Below, piece after piece: positions 4,752 to 40,886 of a DNA stretch of 64,000 bases. The notes under the pieces were generated by a model. It saw only the letters and a list, made by a program, of their open reading frames with translations, was not told the DNA's origin and made no database searches. This DNA is from Segetibacter sp. GTDB lineage: Bacteria; Bacteroidota; Bacteroidia; Chitinophagales; Chitinophagaceae. A program made the position numbers and the translations under genes. Location of the stretch: positions 1 to 64,000 of the forward strand of contig JAQBNO010000110.1 in the NCBI GenBank assembly GCA_028288485.1, given 5' to 3'. Position 1 is the first letter of the stretch, and every line of letters starts with the position of its first letter.

Positions 4752-5318
4752 ATGTTTATTGAACCTAATATTTCCGGCGAACGCAGGGGGTGGATCGAAG
4801 TTATTTGCGGTAGTATGTTCAGCGGAAAAACAGAAGAACTGATTCGCCGGTTAAGAAGGGCGCGGTTTGCTAACCTGAAAGTTGAGATATTCAAACCGGC
4901 TATCGACGTTCGTTTCGATGAAACAGCCGTTGTAAGCCACGATTCAAATTCCATCCATTCTACACCCATCGATAATTCACAAACTATATTATTATTAGCC
5001 AACGATGTCGATATTGTAGGTATTGATGAAGCACAGTTTTTTGACGATGAAATAATCAACGTTTGCGAAAAACTGGCTTTAAAAGGAATAAGGGTAATTG
5101 TTGCAGGACTAGATATGGATTACAAGGGACAGCCTTTTGGCCAGATGCCGAAGCTGCTCGCTATTGCTGATTTCATTACCAAGCTTCATGCTATATGTGT
5201 GCGCTGTGGTAACCTCGCAAATATCTCTTACCGTAAATCTGCACAGGAAGGACAGGTGTTATTAGGCGAAATGGATGTTTATGAGCCGCGCTGCAGAAAA
5301 TGTTATCATGAAGGATGA
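4752..5318 (+). CDS. tdk: Thymidine kinase
   Basis: Phosphorylates thymidine with ATP in the pyrimidine salvage pathway. The 188 residues fit the type II (bacterial) family. Seen: P-loop GSMFSGKT (20-27), the Mg/active-site segment [10 protein letters not shown], and zinc-binding cysteine pairs near the C-terminus (CVRCGN and CRKCY). It is a stand-alone gene, followed by a 179 bp gap carrying a dispersed repeat and then ccmB. Confidence 0.96.
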
Positions 5319-5367
5319 AAGAAAGAAGAATATTTTGGTAACCAGCAGCAATGCTACTGCCAGCAGC

Positions 5368-5388
5368 CGTTGCGTCGCACTCTTGTAC
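5368..5388 (-). repeat. Dispersed repeat copy (TGCGACGCAACG type)
   Basis: Minus-strand copy: GTACAAGAG directly followed by TGCGACGCAACG, identical over 21 bp to the copy starting at 25054. It lies between tdk and ccmB. Confidence 0.75.
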
Positions 5389-5497
5389 TTTAACCTACAA
5401 TTAGCGGCTAAACCATATTCATATAAATCATTGTAAACAAGGCCATTTAAACAACGATAAAACAAATGAAAAGGAGCCTTCCAAAATTTACAATCTA

Positions 5498-6157
5498 TTG
5501 AACTCACTTAAAACAATTACCGCGCTTTTCAAAAAAGACCTGTTATTAGAAATACGACAGCAGTACAGCTTTTACGGCGTATTACTATATGTGTCGTCAA
5601 CCATATTTGTTCTGTATCTGGCCATGGGCCAGCCAGAAGACGAAGTATGGAACGGGTTATTCTGGATGATACAGCTTTTTGTGTGTGTAAATGCAGTTGC
5701 GAAGAGCTTCTTGCAGGAGAGCAAGGGACGAATGTTGTACTTCTACTCTATTGCCGGCCCGCGGGACTTCATTCTTTCAAAACTACTTTTCAACGCTTTG
5801 CTCATGCTGATAATGAGTATTATGAGTTTGCTCCTATTCCTCTTACTGATGGGAAACCCTTTAAGGCAACCTTTACAATTCATTGGATTGGCAACATTAG
5901 GTGGGGTTAGCCTGAGTGTGGTATTTACCTTTTTAGCAGCGATTGCTTCCAAGGCACAACAACAGGCCGCTCTTATGGCTATCCTCGGTTTTCCAATTAT
6001 TATTCCTCAGCTCCTGCTGCTGATGAAAATTGCAACGATTGCCTTTTCATCTGTCATACAGGCGGGACTTGGACAAATGGTTCTATTATTAATTGCATTA
6101 GATGCAATGGTAGTTGTTCTCTCTATTATTTTGTTTCCCTTTCTCTGGAAGGATTAA
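5498..6157 (+). CDS. ccmB: Heme exporter permease subunit CcmB
   Basis: Membrane subunit of the CcmABC complex, which helps hand heme to the periplasm during cytochrome c maturation. The 219 residues hold about six hydrophobic segments. The N-terminal amphipathic stretch (ITALFKKDLLLEIRQQ) is the usual start of the family. The frame opens with TTG at 5498; no ATG is in frame upstream, and the next internal Met falls inside a membrane segment, so TTG is the best start despite being unusual. ccmC follows after 157 bp. The ATPase subunit gene ccmA is not in this window. Confidence 0.85.
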   Translation: MNSLKTITALFKKDLLLEIRQQYSFYGVLLYVSSTIFVLYLAMGQPEDEVWNGLFWMIQLFVCVNAVAKSFLQESKGRMLYFYSIAGPRDFILSKLLFNALLMLIMSIMSLLLFLLLMGNPLRQPLQFIGLATLGGVSLSVVFTFLAAIASKAQQQAALMAILGFPIIIPQLLLLMKIATIAFSSVIQAGLGQMVLLLIALDAMVVVLSIILFPFLWKD

Positions 6158-6314
6158 GCTACAACTATTTGTGCGTCACCTATTTTATCAATTCTTCTTC
6201 GCTAGAATGAACACCTTTCCCCTAATTTTGTTGCTTTATTTTTCACGACTTCTTGAGCTTAAACAGGGTTAGCTGAGCGCTATCTTACTTTTATGCTGTA
6301 AAACAATAACAACC

Positions 6315-6992
6315 ATGATTAGAAAATCCTGGTGGAAAACGCTATCAGTAGTTTTATTAATATATACATTTACTGCCGGCTTTCTCATCAAAGTTCCTCA
6401 CGTAGGCAATTTGTATGGCTCCATCCGTAACTTCTTTTTTCACGTACCCATGTGGTTTGGAATGATGGTACTTTTTTTAATTTCTGTTATTTACGCCATT
6501 AAACATCTCCGCAATCCTACTATTGACTCCGACATCTATTCGAAAGAGTATGCAAAAACAGGTACCGTGTTTGGTGTGTTAGGGCTGATTACCGGCTCTA
6601 TTTGGGCAAACTACACCTGGGGTGAGGCATGGAGTAACGATCCCAAACAATTACTGGCTGCCATATCCCTGCTTATATATGCTGCTTATTTTATATTACG
6701 AAACTCTATTACCGATATAGACAAAAGAGGACGCATAGGCGCTGTTTACAATGTTTTCGCCTGCGCTATGCTCTTTCCTACATTATGGATTATTCCAAGA
6801 ATGGTAGAAAGTCTGCATCCGGGCGGACAGGGAGTAGAGGGAAACCCTGGAATGGGCGGTAAAGACCTTGATGCGACGATGCGGGTCGTTTTTTGGCCGG
6901 CAGTTATAGGATGGACTTTGTTAGGTGTATGGATAACAACCCTTAAAATAAGATTTGAACAACTTAAAGAAAAACAAACAGTAAATGTTTAA
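6315..6992 (+). CDS. ccmC: Cytochrome c biogenesis protein CcmC
   Basis: Inner-membrane heme-handling protein that delivers heme to the chaperone CcmE. The 225 residues have six predicted membrane segments, and the periplasmic tryptophan-rich loop appears as WANYTWGEAWSNDPKQL, the WWD-type heme-binding signature in a diverged form. Its last 8 bp overlap the start of a small ccmD-like gene, so the two are translationally linked. The same fold occurs in CcsA and CcmF, but length and context favour CcmC. Confidence 0.88.
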   Translation: MIRKSWWKTLSVVLLIYTFTAGFLIKVPHVGNLYGSIRNFFFHVPMWFGMMVLFLISVIYAIKHLRNPTIDSDIYSKEYAKTGTVFGVLGLITGSIWANYTWGEAWSNDPKQLLAAISLLIYAAYFILRNSITDIDKRGRIGAVYNVFACAMLFPTLWIIPRMVESLHPGGQGVEGNPGMGGKDLDATMRVVFWPAVIGWTLLGVWITTLKIRFEQLKEKQTVNV

Positions 6993-7215
6993 TAGAAAAT
7001 CTTCTTTACTTGCTTTTGCATTTTTGATAAACCAATGCGTGAATGCCCAGTCAAATGCAACAGTTGCAACTGCTGAAAAAACGGGATTTATGCGAAGCGA
7101 GGCAAAAATCTATGTAGTGATGATTGTCGTAATTACCATTCTTGCAGGTTTAATACTTTACCTGTTTAGATTAGACAGAAAATTAACTAAACTTGAAAAA
7201 GGTAGTAGTCTGTAG
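6985..7215 (+). CDS. Small membrane protein, CcmD-like
   Basis: A 76-residue protein with an N-terminal hydrophobic, signal-like segment (about 7-22, ending near CVNAQS), one membrane helix (about 44-62), and a short basic cytoplasmic tail. It begins inside the ccmC stop region (8 bp overlap). Size, topology and position match CcmD, which holds the CcmABC-CcmE complex together. The sequence itself is too short to prove membership, so the call rests mainly on context. Confidence 0.6.
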   Translation: MFNRKSSLLAFAFLINQCVNAQSNATVATAEKTGFMRSEAKIYVVMIVVITILAGLILYLFRLDRKLTKLEKGSSL

Positions 7216-7372
7216 AAAGTCATGAATTACGCGACGGATGATTTGCGTATTACAGTACAACAGAGCCACGCCCCGGCGGGCACGATGTTGACACCAGTTT
7301 TAATGTAGACCACATAAATAAAACCCTTAAAACGAGTACTTCCAAATATGACATTAGATAAATTAGAATAAT

Positions 7373-8791
7373 ATGACAGTGACTGAGAACTACAGCTTCT
7401 TTGATAGTGTTATCCGGAGCTTTGATAAAGCGGCAAAGTTTACAAGTTGGGATTTGGGAATATTGGAACAGATTAAGGCTTGCAATAGTGTCTACAGGAT
7501 GAAATTCCCGGTTAGAATTGGAGATAATATTGAAGTGATTGAAGCTTACCGGGTACAACATAGCCATCACAAAACCCCCTGCAAAGGCGGTATACGCTTT
7601 AGTATGGAGGTAAACCAGGACGAGGTTATGGCGCTTGCCGCATTGATGACCTATAAATGTGCAATTGTAAATGTGCCTTTCGGAGGCGCTAAAGGTGGAA
7701 TTAAAATTGACCCGAAAAAATATACTGCTTTCGAACTCGAAAAAATCACCCGACGTTATACTTCTGAATTAATCAAGAAAAATTTTATCGGCCCCGGCAC
7801 CGACGTGCCTGCTCCTGATTATGGAACAGGGGCTCGTGAAATGGCGTGGATCTTAGATACCTATGTTGCGATGCACCCGGGAGAAGTAGATGCCGCAGCC
7901 TGTGTTACCGGCAAACCCGTATCGCAGGGCGGCGTTCGCGGAAGAACCGAAGCAACCGGGTTGGGCGTTTTCTTTGGCATTAGGGAAGTTTGCAATATGG
8001 CCTCTATAATGGAAGGACTTGGATTAACCATGGGAATTGCTGGTAAAAGAGTCGTTGTTCAGGGCCTCGGCAACGTGGGCTACCACTGTGCAAAATACTT
8101 TCGGGAACATGGAGCTAAAGTGATCGCAATTGCTGAGTGGGAAGGAGCAGTATACAATCAAGATGGACTAAACGAAGAAGATGTTTTTCAACACAGGAAG
8201 GCAAAAGGCACAATATTGAACTTTCCCGGCGGACAAAACCTCGCATTAAATACTGATGCACTGGAACTTGATTGTGATATTTTGATTCCGGCAGCCTTGG
8301 AGAATGTCATCAACGGGCAAAACGCACCCCGGGTAAAAGCAAAAATTATTGGCGAGGCTGCAAACGGTCCATTAACACCCGAAGCAGATGAAATTTTCAT
8401 TGCTAAAGGAACACTCGTAGTTCCCGATATGTACCTGAATGCAGGAGGTGTAACAGTAAGTTATTTTGAATGGTTGAAAAACCTTAGCCATGTCCGCTAC
8501 GGGCGGCTCGAAAAGCGTTTTACCGAAAACATGAACAAACACATCCTGGGGCAAATAGAAAATCTTACAGGAAAAAATGTTGATGCAAAAGAAAGAACGT
8601 TTATAGAACATGGTGCTGACGAGGTCGATCTTGTTCACAGCGGACTGGAAGAAACAATGGTAACCGCGACCAAGGAAATTATGGATGTTTGGAAAAGCAA
8701 TCCAGGAATACCTGATATGCGCACGGCCGCTTATGTTTGTGCCATAAACAAAGTTGCCACCAGCTATGCTGAACTCGGTATTTTTCCTTAA
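7373..8791 (+). CDS. gdhA: Glu/Leu/Phe/Val dehydrogenase, probably glutamate dehydrogenase
   Basis: Oxidative deamination of an amino acid (or the reverse) with NAD(P), linking amino acid and 2-oxoacid pools. The 472 residues are slightly longer than typical hexameric glutamate dehydrogenases. Seen: PCKGGIRFS with the catalytic-site lysine, [10 protein letters not shown], and the dinucleotide-binding motif [28 protein letters not shown] closes the cofactor domain. Substrate choice (Glu versus branched-chain) is inferred from overall resemblance. It is a single gene closed by a clear terminator at 8820-8848. Confidence 0.85.
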
Positions 8792-8819
8792 TGAAATGTT
8801 TATATTTTATTTATTTCGT

Positions 8820-8848
8820 AAAAATCCCTGTCCGGCGCAGGGATTTTT
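8820..8848 (+). terminator. Rho-independent terminator of the glutamate dehydrogenase gene
   Basis: A 10-11 bp stem (AAAATCCCTG pairing with CAGGGATTTT) around a 7-base loop, ending in a run of T. It lies 29 bp after the stop codon. Confidence 0.88.
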
Positions 8849-35843: not shown

Positions 35844-36995
35844 ATGAGTATTTGGGGACCACTAAAAGATCGTTATGAAACGAAGCAACCACGTAAAATT
35901 CTATCGATAGATGGTGGGGGCATCAGGGGAATTGTTGCCCTGGGAATGCTCGCCGAAATGGAAAGCCAGTTAAAAAACAAACTAAAAAGGGGCAGCGATT
36001 TCCGGTTATGCGACTATTTTGATTATATAGGAGGAACCAGTACCGGTGCTATAATTGCGTCTGGCCTATCAATCGGCTTATCCGTACAGGAACTCCTTAA
36101 CTATTACCTCGACAAAGGGAAGCTGATGTTCGACAAGACTTTCATATTGAAACGTTGGAAGGCCTTATACGAATCGGGCCCTATTCTACAAAGCCTTAAA
36201 GAAACTTTTGGCGCAGATACGGATCTTACTTTAAACAATGGTAAATATAAAAGCTTACTGCTTGTGGTGGCTATGAACAGAACGACCGACTCTCCGTGGC
36301 CAATCAGCAATAACCCCTTAGCAAAATATAACAACCCCGACCGACCCGATTGTAACGCAAAAATCAAACTCTATCAATTAGTAAGAGCGAGCTCGGCGGC
36401 GCCCGTCTTTTTTCCTCCCGAAACGTTGCAATGGGATCCCAACGATGATGATAAAACTTTTGTTTTTGTAGACGGAGGCGTTTCGCCTTACAACAATCCC
36501 GCCTTTTTAATGTATCGTATGGCCACTCAGCCTGCCTACAACCTTAACTGGGAAACAGGTGAAAATAAACTGCTCATCATTTCTGTAGGAACCGGTGCTG
36601 CAGTCAGTACCGGTGAATATAGTAACATTCTCGATACTGCTCAGAACTTACCCAACAACCTCTTGTACGCAATGGCGGTTGACCAGGATATTAACTGTCG
36701 TACCGTTGGTCGCTGTACTTATGGCGCTCCTATTGACCGCGAGTTGAGATATATGATACCAATGGACAAACACGGAAATATCAGTCCGCTATCGCAAGAT
36801 ACAGATCGGCATTTTCTTTATGCCCGATACAATGCAGACCTAAGTACTGAAGGATTGAAAGAACTTGGTCTCGAAAACATCAAATCAGAAAACGTGAGGA
36901 AAATGGATACAGTTGATTATTTAGACGAGCTGCAAGCAGTTGGAAAAGCGGCTTCAAAACAGGTAGATCTTGCTCACTTTGGGTCTTTTGTTTAA
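35844..36995 (+). CDS. Patatin-like phospholipase
   Basis: Predicted lipid acyl hydrolase of 383 residues, cytoplasmic or membrane-associated, with no signal peptide. The full patatin signature is present: oxyanion glycine motif SIDGGGIRG (21-29), nucleophile Ser66 in GGTSTGAI, and the dyad Asp210 in VDGGVSPYNNP; all catalytic residues are kept. Patatins of this kind serve as membrane-damaging effectors in several prokaryotic immune systems (for example CapV in CBASS), but also as ordinary lipases. The next gene on the same strand, 341 bp on, is the DRHyd-TPR-SLOG protein. No nucleotidyltransferase or cyclase gene lies nearby. Confidence 0.9.
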   Translation: MSIWGPLKDRYETKQPRKILSIDGGGIRGIVALGMLAEMESQLKNKLKRGSDFRLCDYFDYIGGTSTGAIIASGLSIGLSVQELLNYYLDKGKLMFDKTFILKRWKALYESGPILQSLKETFGADTDLTLNNGKYKSLLLVVAMNRTTDSPWPISNNPLAKYNNPDRPDCNAKIKLYQLVRASSAAPVFFPPETLQWDPNDDDKTFVFVDGGVSPYNNPAFLMYRMATQPAYNLNWETGENKLLIISVGTGAAVSTGEYSNILDTAQNLPNNLLYAMAVDQDINCRTVGRCTYGAPIDRELRYMIPMDKHGNISPLSQDTDRHFLYARYNADLSTEGLKELGLENIKSENVRKMDTVDYLDELQAVGKAASKQVDLAHFGSFV

Positions 36996-37044
36996 TGAGT
37001 ATAAACTCTTTTTGGTACCCGCTTTTGGTATTTCATAGCATCAT

Positions 37045-37066
37045 CGTTGCGTCGCAATCACTTCAT
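37045..37066 (-). repeat. Dispersed repeat copy, hybrid of the two core types
   Basis: Minus-strand TGATTGCGACGCAACG: the TGCGACGCAACG half is intact, while the other half resembles the GTGAGTGA variant. It lies just after the patatin gene. Confidence 0.6.
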
Positions 37067-37157
37067 CGGCAGAATAATGAGCAACATTTTTAATTGGATG
37101 TTACTCATCGTACTCTAAATAGTTTTCGTACTTCTACATTTTGCAAAAAGGCAAAAA

Positions 37158-37240
37158 GTACAAGAGTGCCGCCCTTCTACAAGGCCAGGGTAAACTACCA
37201 CCCTGAACAACGTGTTACAGTACAAGCGAGCGTGGCAACG
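37158..37240 (+). repeat. Two dispersed repeat copies ahead of the DRHyd-TPR-SLOG gene
   Basis: GTACAAGAGTGCCGCCCTT starts at 37158, and a second copy, GTACAAGCGAGCGTGGCAAC, starts at 37220; the second matches 22436-22456. With the inverted copy at 37045 they fill the 36996-37336 gap, which has no gene. An open frame runs through them into the next gene but is unlikely to be translated. Confidence 0.6.
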
Positions 37241-37336
37241 GCTGCTGAAAAAAGAGATAAAGCTGGTAACAAAATAACCACTCAAAGAAGCAACTGGAAC
37301 TTTATTGAATTCAAAAAAATCTCTACGATTACAAAT

Positions 37337-39334
37337 ATGGAAGCTTTTATTGTTCGCCCTTTTGGTATAAAACAGGATGTGGATTTCGAAAAAGTACATA
37401 ATGAACTAATTATGCCTGCTTTAAAAAAAGTTGGCATTAAAGGAGGTACGACAGCACCAATTGTTGAGCAGGGCAACATAAGAGAAGACATGTTTTCGAA
37501 ACTGCTAACTGCTGATCTCGTTATTGCAGATATCTCTATTCACAACGCTAATGTGTTCTACGAATTGGGTATCAGGCATGCATTACAGGATAAACGAACA
37601 TTTTTAATTCGAAGTGCAAAAGATGAGGTTCCATTTGACCTTAAAACCGACCGGTATCTAAGTTATGATACGGCTAATCCTGCTGACAGCTTAGATGCAT
37701 TAGTAGCAGGTCTTAAGGCTACAATGCTATCGGACAGGCAAGACAGTCCTGTTTTTTACATGCTTCCAAAACTGGAAGCCCAGGACAGGGAACGTTTTTT
37801 AGCAGTCCCTTCCGATTTTGGAGAAGAAGTGGAAATTGCTAAAGAAAGCAGGCAAAAAGGAATGTTAGCTTTGTTAGCTGCAGAGGCAGAAGGATTTCCG
37901 TGGATCATACCTGCCTTGCGTGTTGTAGGAAATGCGCAGCACAGCCTGAAAGCGTATGAAGTAGCGCGAATTACCTGGGAAAAGATTCGGGATATTTATC
38001 CAAACGATCTTGAAGCGAACGACCGCCTTGCCACTATATACCAGCGACTTGCAGAAGGTGAAATGAAGTTGGATGCAACATCAGGTAAGGAACTGCTGGC
38101 AAAATCGGACATCGCAATTAGTCGGATGCTTGAAAATTATACAAAGCTTGATAAGTGGAAACGCGCCGAAGTTTATTCATTAAAAGCCCGCAACACCAAA
38201 TTCAGGTGGATAGACAACTGGAGGTGCGTACCCGCCGATAAAACCAGGAAAACTGCTTTACAGTCCAAATTCCTTGTTGAAGCTTACCAGGATTATGAAC
38301 GCGCCTATCATGAAGACTTAAACCATTTCTATTCAGGCGTTAATGCCCTTGGATTACTTACGGTGCTTATTAGCCTTGCAGATAGCCTTCCCGATGATTG
38401 GCTGGAAGAATTTGATACAGATGACGAAGCTTTATCAGAACTAAAAAAGTATAAAGACAAGCAACAAAAGTTGTCGACGGTGGTGCAAACCTCGGTTGAA
38501 GCAGAAAAGAAAAGATTACAACGCGAAGGAAAAAACGATCCGTGGGTAACTATTACAGAAGCCGACCTGAACTGCCTGATTTCGAAAAAGCCATCACGTG
38601 TAGCTAATTTATACCGGGATGTACTGCTCGCCGCAGACGAACAAAACTTCGATTCTACCAAAAGGCAATTGGAAATTTATAAAGAATTGGGAGTATTGAC
38701 AGAAAATATAAATGCTGCACTTGCAGAATTCCAGTTACCGGAAAAAACTGATGAAGGTAAAACACATTACCTCCTGTTCACCGGTCACATGATTGACCAA
38801 AAAGACAGGAAAGAGCCGCGGTTTCCGGCTTTGAAAGAGGCCCCGGTTAAGGCAGCCATAAAGGAAGCCGTGGAAAAAGAAAAAGAAAAAACAAACCGAA
38901 AATTAAAAGGAATTTCGGGGGGAGCGTGTGGCGGCGACATTTTGTTTCACGAAGTATGTGCTGAATTAGGGATCGAAACAGAACTGTTCCTGGCACTTCC
39001 AAGGGAAAAGTTTATCCAGGAGTCAGTGGAGTTTGGTGGTGTTGAGTGGATAGAACGATTCGACAAACTGTTTAATAAACTTCGCAAACGCTATTTATCA
39101 CAAAATAAAGAGCTCAATAAATGGTTGCAGAGAAAAGAGAATTATTCAATCTGGGAACGCAATAATTTATGGATGTTGAATAGCGCACTCGATTGTGGTG
39201 GCATGCAAATGACATTAATTGCTTTGTGGGATGGAAAGGGAGGAGACAACGTTGGCGGAACTGAACACATGGTAAAAGAGGCAAAAGACAGGGGAAGTAA
39301 GGTAGTTGTTTTAGACGTTAACAAGATAGGTTAG
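37337..39334 (+). CDS. DRHyd/TIR-like, TPR-scaffold and SLOG-like three-part protein
   Basis: A 665-residue cytoplasmic protein. Residues 1-135 resemble the nucleoside deoxyribosyltransferase/DRHyd (TIR-like) fold: MEAFIVRPFG, ADLVIADISIHNANVFYELGIRHAL, with the glutamate E76 of YELG matching the catalytic position of that superfamily. Residues about 150-470 are all-helical and TPR-like, in the manner of the MAP3K TRAFs-binding (ASK1) scaffold. Residues about 473-665 look like a SLOG Rossmann domain: LLFTGHMIDQKDR, PRFP, GGACGGDILFHEVC, and LPREKFIQESV. The ATG at 37337 is chosen because the conserved domain begins there; the open frame extends 81 codons further up through repeats. It may act as a nucleotide or NAD-derivative sensor or enzyme. 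The partner candidate is the patatin. Confidence 0.8.
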   Translation: MEAFIVRPFGIKQDVDFEKVHNELIMPALKKVGIKGGTTAPIVEQGNIREDMFSKLLTADLVIADISIHNANVFYELGIRHALQDKRTFLIRSAKDEVPFDLKTDRYLSYDTANPADSLDALVAGLKATMLSDRQDSPVFYMLPKLEAQDRERFLAVPSDFGEEVEIAKESRQKGMLALLAAEAEGFPWIIPALRVVGNAQHSLKAYEVARITWEKIRDIYPNDLEANDRLATIYQRLAEGEMKLDATSGKELLAKSDIAISRMLENYTKLDKWKRAEVYSLKARNTKFRWIDNWRCVPADKTRKTALQSKFLVEAYQDYERAYHEDLNHFYSGVNALGLLTVLISLADSLPDDWLEEFDTDDEALSELKKYKDKQQKLSTVVQTSVEAEKKRLQREGKNDPWVTITEADLNCLISKKPSRVANLYRDVLLAADEQNFDSTKRQLEIYKELGVLTENINAALAEFQLPEKTDEGKTHYLLFTGHMIDQKDRKEPRFPALKEAPVKAAIKEAVEKEKEKTNRKLKGISGGACGGDILFHEVCAELGIETELFLALPREKFIQESVEFGGVEWIERFDKLFNKLRKRYLSQNKELNKWLQRKENYSIWERNNLWMLNSALDCGGMQMTLIALWDGKGGDNVGGTEHMVKEAKDRGSKVVVLDVNKIG

Positions 39335-39473
39335 TCAAAAAATGTTCGATCATTCTAAAGTTAAAACAAACGGACTTTCAGAAATTTCGTGGAAAGTTCA
39401 GCTTTTCAGTAGATAAAGTAGCTAATTGCAGTTGAAGAAGCGCAGCGGGAAACTGAAACTGTAAACAGCTGTT

Positions 39474-40886
39474 CTATTGCCCTTTCCATTCAGGGTTCAA
39501 AAGATTGCCATACTTCTCCAAAATTACCCGTAAAGCATCTACCTGGTTCGTTAGTGCTTCCTGCATGCCTACAGCATTTCCGATACCCTTTGCCTGTTCT
39601 AAGGCGTTTTGGTATTCCTCCATATTGCCAAGGCCGAAATATGCTTCCGCCTTATTTACCAGGGTCCAGAACTTCTGCTCGTCCTCCACCATTTGCTGAT
39701 TTTTAAGTACTTCAGCATCCATCACTGCATCCTTCTTGGCATTTTTCGCTTCACGATCGATCACCGCTTTCCAATCTTTTTCGCACATGGCGAGAACATC
39801 TTTCCTGATCCGGTTTGCCCATACCATATCTGCTATTTTCTCTTCTTTCGTTTTGTCGAGAAAACTGGCAGCGCGGCAGTTCAAAAGATAAGCGAGGTTA
39901 ATTCCGTTATATCGATTGTTCAACAGGTAAAATCCGCGTTGAAAAAGTAATATTGCGTCTTCAAGATGATTTTCCCCTTCACCAATCTCGAACAGTTTTT
40001 TCTCGATTGCTCCCGCCAACATAACCGTTTCAGAATCGTTCGTATGCATCAGGTCGAGTTTTTCCAATAATGCATTTGCTTCTATTAATGCTGTTTTTTT
40101 ATCGGCTGTTTCATCTTTATAAGTAGCAAGGGCAAGCCGCTGGTATAAATAGGAGAAATTAGACGTAATGGCTTGCTGGTTGTTGCAGTTCGAAAGAAGG
40201 ATGGCAGAATTAAAGAGCCCTTTTGCACGGGAATAGTTCTTGTTTTTTATTGCCTCCTCGCCCTGTTTTACGATCAGAGACAAAGTTTGGCGTTCTACGT
40301 CTTCATCATGGTCACCGTTTTTAGCAGGAGAGTTTGATATAGCTTCATTCACCTCTGTAGCAACAGCTTCCGCCTTATCTTTGAGAGCAGGGGGAATTAG
40401 ATCATTTAAAAAAGTATATACCGGGCTATCAGGAGTTTCATCGGTTAGAATTGCATCGAGCGTTGCTCCCAATTGCTTTTGAAAACGCAAAACTTCGAAA
40501 TAGTCGAGACTTTCACCCGAATGTTTGTATTTATTAATTTTTATGTGGTTGACATCAAATGGAAGGCACAATTGGTCTTCCGACATCACGATTGTACTTC
40601 TGGGACGTAGAGCGTAGCGAACGCCTAACTCGTAAAATGCGTTGGCGTTCGCGGTAGAAAGATCAGCAACAACTATATCAGCTTTGTACAATTCCTTATA
40701 CATCGGCACATCTATACTTCCCGAATTTGGAATTTCATCTGCCCGTACGCAAATCATTCCTTTACTCTCTATCACAGGTTTTATCAATGCTTCGTAAGAC
40801 ATGTTCAGGTTTAATTTACGACCTGTCGCAAGGTCTGTTTTTATTCCAAAACCCATCACAACAAAACAACGTTTTTTATCTTCCAT
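39474..40886 (-). CDS. DRHyd/TIR-like and TPR-scaffold protein
   Basis: A 470-residue paralogue of the first two parts of the convergent neighbour. Residues 1-150: RCFVVMGFG near the start, ADIVVADLSTANANAFYELGVRYAL with E86 of YELG kept, and LPFDVNHIKINKY. Residues about 185-470 are helical TPR-like repeats; TRAFs-binding-type segments such as NRYNGINLAYLLNCRA are visible. There is no SLOG domain and no membrane segment. The ATG at 40886 opens with MEDKKRC, the usual start for this fold; the frame extends 20 codons upstream without resemblance. It ends 139 bp from the convergent gene. Confidence 0.78.
   Translation of the reverse strand: MEDKKRCFVVMGFGIKTDLATGRKLNLNMSYEALIKPVIESKGMICVRADEIPNSGSIDVPMYKELYKADIVVADLSTANANAFYELGVRYALRPRSTIVMSEDQLCLPFDVNHIKINKYKHSGESLDYFEVLRFQKQLGATLDAILTDETPDSPVYTFLNDLIPPALKDKAEAVATEVNEAISNSPAKNGDHDEDVERQTLSLIVKQGEEAIKNKNYSRAKGLFNSAILLSNCNNQQAITSNFSYLYQRLALATYKDETADKKTALIEANALLEKLDLMHTNDSETVMLAGAIEKKLFEIGEGENHLEDAILLFQRGFYLLNNRYNGINLAYLLNCRAASFLDKTKEEKIADMVWANRIRKDVLAMCEKDWKAVIDREAKNAKKDAVMDAEVLKNQQMVEDEQKFWTLVNKAEAYFGLGNMEEYQNALEQAKGIGNAVGMQEALTNQVDALRVILEKYGNLLNPEWKGQ

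Follow-up and report, generated by a model that had tools for sequence, protein, structure and literature searches.

Background

Prokaryotic immune systems that combine signals derived from NAD with the TPR-S scaffold were reportedly predicted by Burroughs and Aravind in 2020. In TPR-S systems a DRHyd or TIR domain stands at the N-terminal end, an effector is linked, and there is a link to ASK. Many TPR proteins serve as scaffolds for binding, and in ASK1 the regulatory region holds the protein inactive. In plants, EDS1, a lipase-like protein with a helical part, is the end point of TIR signalling. Thoeris joins an enzyme of the TIR/DRHyd family to SLOG sensor logic, and TIR and DrHyd domains are described as NADase effectors in immune systems (PMC9503650).

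We report the analysis of three genes from the 6.4 Mb genome of a Segetibacter species, here called PAT, B and C, which lie in a window of 64,000 nucleotides (the whole stretch of DNA analysed) and which an earlier note had read as a patatin lipase beside two DRHyd-TPR proteins. The trio belongs with the predicted TPR-S systems, and not with CBASS or Thoeris, and its scaffold type is common to ASK1. From domains, folds and linkage, we give a probability of roughly 0.6 to the reading that PAT and B form an immune module of the abortive-infection type, in which C would be a related accessory or a second sensor.

Results and Discussion

Layout of the locus

Table 1. Features of the PAT, B and C locus, in window positions
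Feature	Position	Strand	Remarks
PAT (patatin-like phospholipase, proposed effector)	35844..36995	+	383 aa; Pfam, PDB and relatives
PAT-B spacer with dispersed-repeat sequence	36996..37336	.	origin of likely false TTG start at 37094
B (DRHyd - TPR-S - SLOG protein)	37337..39334	+	665 aa; alignments A1 and A3; AlphaFold2 model
B DRHyd domain, about residues 1-153	37337..37795	+	catalytic-type Glu76 in NANVFYELG
B TPR-S scaffold, residues 157-474	37805..38758	+	
B C-terminal SLOG-like domain, residues 475-665, about 190 aa	38759..39331	+	
C (DRHyd - TPR-S protein)	39474..40886	-	470 aa from ATG 40886; convergent with B

All three genes are present at 35844..40886, as the earlier note had placed them, and the last of these positions is the ATG of C (Table 1). 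Its picture of a patatin followed by two DRHyd-TPR genes is right as to content, with one correction: C is encoded on the minus strand, convergent with B, and a single three-gene operon was rejected on this ground. A dispersed repeat with 40 other matches listed in the genome (75-100%) occupies 37009-37285, between PAT and B; it has many matches in congeners as well. The longer open reading frame of B from TTG 37094 was rejected because it extends into this repeat, which makes that codon a likely false start, and the start of B is most likely the ATG at 37337. Promoter-like sites are at chance level (11 against 11.2 expected) and terminator-like sites slightly over it (8 against 5.5, sd 2.2).

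The near neighbours of the trio in the window are cysteine genes, a DnaJ-domain gene and LpxR, with no defence island, and within the window neither a TIR gene nor an invader sensor stands beside the three genes. Synteny within the genus apparently breaks on both sides of the segment 34490-43870, whose flanking blocks lie on different contigs or at least 30 kb apart in the relatives listed; the trio would therefore sit in a variable segment, together with the DnaJ-domain and LpxR genes.

Domains and folds of the three proteins

PAT is the intact patatin that had been described, with a Pfam match (PF01734) of 2.6e-28 and all three motifs, GGGIRG, GTSTG and DGG; the family profile and the GxSxG / DGG dyad are both present. 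It matches patatin-17 (1.9e-22) and CapV (1.2e-20) in the PDB, and the phospholipase effectors of PADLOC at 8e-44. Relatives 65-76% identical to it lie near a B gene in two genomes (G002, and G003 of the same genus) or near a SLOG gene (G016). Among 45 linked patatins GTSTG is kept in 43, the remaining two being gapped; GGGxRG stands in 39, with other forms in three and cut or gapped sequence in three; and DGG stands in 43, with one NGG and one gap.

Both B (2.6e-9; 38 bits) and C (2e-13; 51.3 bits) pass the 27.6-bit cut-off of Pfam TPR-S (PF20308) in hmmscan, and C also passes MAP3K_TRAF_bd at 4.7e-8; a six-frame TPR-S search of the whole genome listed C alone. The AlphaFold2 model of B (pLDDT 90.5, pTM 0.86) allowed the structure check that the earlier note had proposed to be run on this protein, and the N-terminal domain is indeed of a DRHyd/TIR fold, matching in fold comparison the TIRs of SPARTA and AbTir and also DNPH1 (the match to DNPH1 by sequence is weak, E 0.04-0.1). 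The glutamate of YELG in this DRHyd-family fold, Glu76, is invariant (73/73). The supposed DRHyd-like N-terminus of C is likewise upheld by sequence, since YELG is kept and the domain is 34% identical to that of B over 145 residues; the PADLOC TIR-effector model matches both (1.2e-7 in B, 3.7e-11 in C). With E values up to 1 admitted, Pfam detected neither SIR2 nor TIR in PAT, B or C, and it gave no kinase match in B or C.

The suggested tie of the scaffold to ASK is supported by TPR-S in B and C and by ASK1 among the best fold matches of the scaffold. A DRHyd domain followed by a helical scaffold is thus seen in both proteins, with YELG and TPR-S in each, but the earlier note had missed the third domain of B, a C-terminal domain of about 190 aa with the YpsA/SLOG fold in fold comparison. 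When B, C and the SLOG part were searched against the PDB as sequence profiles, nothing beyond TPR and chance-level matches came up, and a plain Foldseek search with the whole of B was dominated by TPR proteins. The glycine motif of the SLOG domain is variable (G528 and G529 in 50/73), so this domain may do no more than bind.

The fold matches to SPARTA and AbTir, with the account of TIR and DrHyd domains as NADase effectors in PMC9503650, would suit a DRHyd domain that is itself the killer, an NADase controlled by SLOG and TPR-S with the patatin as accessory or second effector. We regard this as quite unlikely: the commonest partner found (below) is a lipase of some kind, and C-type DRHyd-TPR genes adjoin TIR genes, beside which such a killer would be redundant.

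Linkage seen from B

The genome_contigs collection, scanned with B, yielded 130 pattern matches, among which 88 relatives were confirmed and 80 loci retained. These 80 were found via two DRHyd motifs and chosen by B alone; they are not independent, as near copies (Bradyrhizobium) and short contigs are included. By record title they come from Bacteroidota, Proteobacteria, Acidobacteria, Nitrospira, Actinobacteria and Planctomycetes. With 76 of the 80 matching over most of the length and the model of B at pLDDT 90.5, the domain signals of the trio are far beyond chance.

A patatin lies within 1.5 kb of B at 44 of the 79 loci that have a tblastn scaffold hit: upstream on the same strand in 35, downstream on the same strand in five and downstream convergent in four, with the aligned ends at most 84 nt apart in 21 of the 35 upstream cases. 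Within 4 kb, by local profile, 45 of the 80 loci have a patatin, 22 a TIR gene, 55 either and 25 neither, some contigs among these 25 being short. With genomes taken to be 5 Mb each and the density of this patatin clade across the family as background, chance would place a patatin near B at about 0.01 loci. The linkage of patatin with DRHyd-TPR genes is therefore conserved, here and in the reciprocal test from the patatin side; with this linkage, and with B of DRHyd/TIR fold, neither of the two objections that the earlier note had raised against itself, absence of linkage and unrelated folds, holds.

PAT distances also track B distances across 42 rows (Pearson 0.73, Spearman 0.49, 0/2000 permutations), a correlation to which shared species history can add. 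Such frequent pairing and correlated distances are also consistent with B as a bound inhibitor and not a signal maker, PAT being a toxin restrained by TPR-S in toxin-antitoxin logic while DRHyd and SLOG sense the loss or gain of a normal nucleotide, e.g. NAD+, on depletion by a phage; the binding habit of TPR proteins and the self-restraint of ASK1 agree with it. We think it unlikely, since a pure sensor has no obvious need of the catalytic-type glutamate that is invariant in the DRHyd domain and since a TIR takes the N-terminal place in a TIR-TPR-S protein beside a patatin.

Nine TIRs lying near B or PAT went into the local TIR profile, and three of the nine also belong to the reverse-test set. 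A Pfam check of ten TIR candidates near B confirmed nine, while for L069 the 25 families listed out of 54 do not include TIR; the 22 loci with a TIR comprise 14 confirmed by Pfam, L069 and seven called by local profile. From 22 of the 35 patatin-less loci, 27 neighbouring proteins were scanned, and immune-type or lipase-like partners appeared at eight: DUF4062-iSTAND (L070), NB-ARC and TIR-nSTAND1-WD40 (L074), LCAT/PGAP1 with no patatin found (L086 and L088), Roc-COR-TIR (L104), TIR-WD40 and PGAP1 (L105), and TIR-NACHT (L109 and L112). At the other 14 the scanned neighbours were of neither type, L071 among them having a bestrophin-like channel gene. Neighbours of the relatives include TIR, NACHT, nSTAND and SIR2 genes. 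At L024 (4335-7550, in G002) SIR2-TIR and nSTAND1 genes follow PAT-B directly downstream, and this pair is perhaps part of a larger immune operon.

Linkage seen from the patatin

Run on 244 genomes of the family, the patatin profile gave 18 strong matches (453-667 bits), followed by a gap down to 145, and DRHyd or TIR genes stand beside 15 of these 18 clade patatins. DRHyd is the neighbour of ten, seven of these with a scaffold match, and all ten had built the profile. Near the eight patatins outside the profile there is no DRHyd gene, and near five of them there is a TIR gene (G230, G051, G069, G143, G098); G121 and G172 have neither, and the contig of the eighth, G215, measures 3.7 kb. Twelve weaker patatins served as controls, scanned with the local profiles and two of them on contigs under 4.4 kb; no DRHyd or TIR gene adjoins any of them, and the comparison of 5/8 with 0/12 gives a Fisher p of 0.0036. 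Pfam confirmed the three reverse-test TIRs used in the local profile; those of L220 and L222 were called by local profile.

Protein C and its mobile relatives

In 36 fetched regions and the window we found 27 C-type genes, seven with a patatin nearby and 20 with no such patatin in the fetched stretch. Patatin linkage is scattered and not clustered on the C tree (six changes; 280 of 500 shuffles as low), so that C may be an independent neighbour at this locus. The order PAT>B><C recurs in another genus (L054/L157), with a C scaffold 54-55% identical, and none of the flanking genes of the window that were tested was found beside it.

Among 72,556 plasmid records, 71 contain relatives of C, and 36 of the 71 are conjugative. 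A TIR gene is next to the C-type gene in four of seven plasmid regions viewed, at 4-6 nt in two E. coli plasmids (same protein, about 41% identical to C) and in Pseudomonas pA7J1, and at 267 nt in an Agrobacterium Ti plasmid. The Aliarcobacter region has a TIR gene about 5 kb from the C-type gene, and the Rhizobium region a patatin and then DUF4071. In the almost unannotated Paraburkholderia record a SLOG-like match lies 184 nt from the C relative and is encoded on the other strand. The close arrangement, a C-type gene and then a TIR gene after 4-6 nt, is seen on conjugative or mobilizable plasmids (L177 6013-9209, L238 5013-8209, L239 2896-4542), and the two E. coli plasmids with the pair also carry DUF4231. 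The pair is possibly a mobile defence unit, and in E. coli it offers a tractable second system. On a Rhizobium plasmid (L178 304-12651) two SLOG matches, a DRHyd gene, a patatin and a DRHyd-TPR gene spread the parts of B over separate genes. The matches to B in 81 plasmid records and 36 phage records are all partial, with no match that covers more than 80% of B, and a search of viral contigs with C gave four relatives, which were scanned with profiles.

An ASK-like pathway outside immunity, for stress or for remodelling of membrane lipids and triggered by redox or nucleotide stress, would account for a window in which no defence genes adjoin the trio and for the many C-type genes of the family with no adjacent patatin. 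It is nevertheless very improbable in view of the patchy distribution of B, found at full length in 3/38 relatives, of the carriage of C relatives on plasmids and of the recurrent TIR, STAND and SIR2 neighbours.

Apparent exchange of enzyme and lipase around TPR-S

At L027 (G016) PAT is followed by a separate SLOG gene of 184 aa and by a C-type DRHyd-TPR gene, which is to say the parts of B split over two proteins. At L218 (G051; 4835-8821) a patatin adjoins a TIR-TPR-S protein, followed by an alpha/beta-hydrolase-TPR-S protein. Used as a query on 395 genomes of the phylum, the latter had matches in 16, seven of them long (over 200 bits and aligned across the TPR-S part); five of the seven are directly beside a DRHyd gene with a weak scaffold match, one is beside a TIR, and one has neither in the stretch covered. 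From these neighbourhoods it appears that both partners of TPR-S can be replaced, the enzyme being TIR or DRHyd and the lipase a patatin or an alpha/beta hydrolase. The layout of a lipase-like part with a helical sensor, at L218 and at L241-L247, recalls plant EDS1.

A proposed mechanism

PAT and its two partners, which resemble in build the sensor half of the human stress kinase ASK1, are probably an anti-virus self-destruct switch, because this set is met again in distantly related bacteria and next to known immune genes. The trigger, substrate, messenger, direction of signalling and outcome that we infer are as follows. An invader cue would activate the DRHyd domain or domains. These would either cleave a nucleotide, with NAD+ or one of its derivatives as the most likely substrate, or bind the nucleotide that a TIR protein produces; that nucleotide would be bound by the SLOG and TPR-S parts of B, and the scaffold, of the ASK1 kind, would change shape or oligomerise and so release or activate the patatin. 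Hydrolysis of membrane phospholipids would then stop or kill the infected cell, and with it the phage. That DRHyd handles a nucleotide, probably NAD-derived, is suggested by its kinship with the TIR, DrHyd and SLOG domains treated in PMC9503650. On this reading Glu76 marks the candidate signal maker, SLOG/TPR-S would be the sensor, and Ser66 marks the patatin as candidate effector. Against an immune module speak the lack of a sensor gene and of a defence island here, the frequent occurrence of C without a patatin, the 25 of 80 B loci that have neither patatin nor TIR within 4 kb, the 14 of 22 patatin-less loci whose scanned neighbours are of neither immune nor lipase type, and the repeat between PAT and B.

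More tentatively, and at somewhat less than even odds, we suggest that the ASK1 scaffold derives from a bacterial immune switch. In this switch SLOG and TPR-S would read a nucleotide product of DRHyd or TIR and so turn on a lipase, and the patatin and the alpha/beta-hydrolase-TPR-S effectors would be interchangeable outputs. Such interchangeability would imply a bacterial TIR-to-lipase pathway with the logic of plant TIR-EDS1 and the scaffold of animal ASK. If the immune module itself operates as outlined above, a compact two-gene unit joins NAD-derived immune messengers, the scaffold of the ASK stress kinases and a lipase output.

Comparison with known systems

No title or abstract on this module appeared among the literature records listed, which cover few subscription papers, so that studies may exist; subject to the 2020 TPR-S paper, we consider new both the combination of a DRHyd-TPR-S-SLOG protein with a patatin and the reciprocal exchange of lipases. 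The earlier note took the locus, if real, for a distinct arrangement; it is instead one form of a widespread module.

CBASS with CapV shares the patatin effector. It was rejected because no match to the SMODS cyclase (PF18144), one cyclase family, was found in the whole genome, in line with the earlier statement that no cyclase is nearby, and because PAT scores 111.8 against a CBASS_lipase cut-off of 200. Thoeris (ThsA SIR2-SLOG, ThsB TIR) shares the TIR/DRHyd-family enzyme and the SLOG sensor logic, but the trio has no SIR2 or TIR Pfam match, its SLOG is fused to a DRHyd-TPR protein and its linked output is a lipase. YpsA (SLOG) and DNPH1 (a deoxynucleotide hydrolase) match in fold the domains at either end of B and are not known as scaffold fusions. 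EDS1 resembles the alpha/beta-hydrolase-TPR-S fusion by analogy only, and a phmmer search of PDB sequences with that fusion as query, taken to an E of 1, listed no chain of EDS1. The N-terminal and central regulatory region of ASK1 (MAP3K5) has a scaffold like that of B and C, which lack the ASK kinase domain. Closest are the predicted TPR-S systems, with which B and C share the TPR-S domain, the N-terminal DRHyd/TIR domain, the linked effector, here of toxic type (45/80 within 4 kb), and the ASK link; the trio appears to differ from them in the C-terminal SLOG domain that B adds and in its frequent partner, a single patatin clade.
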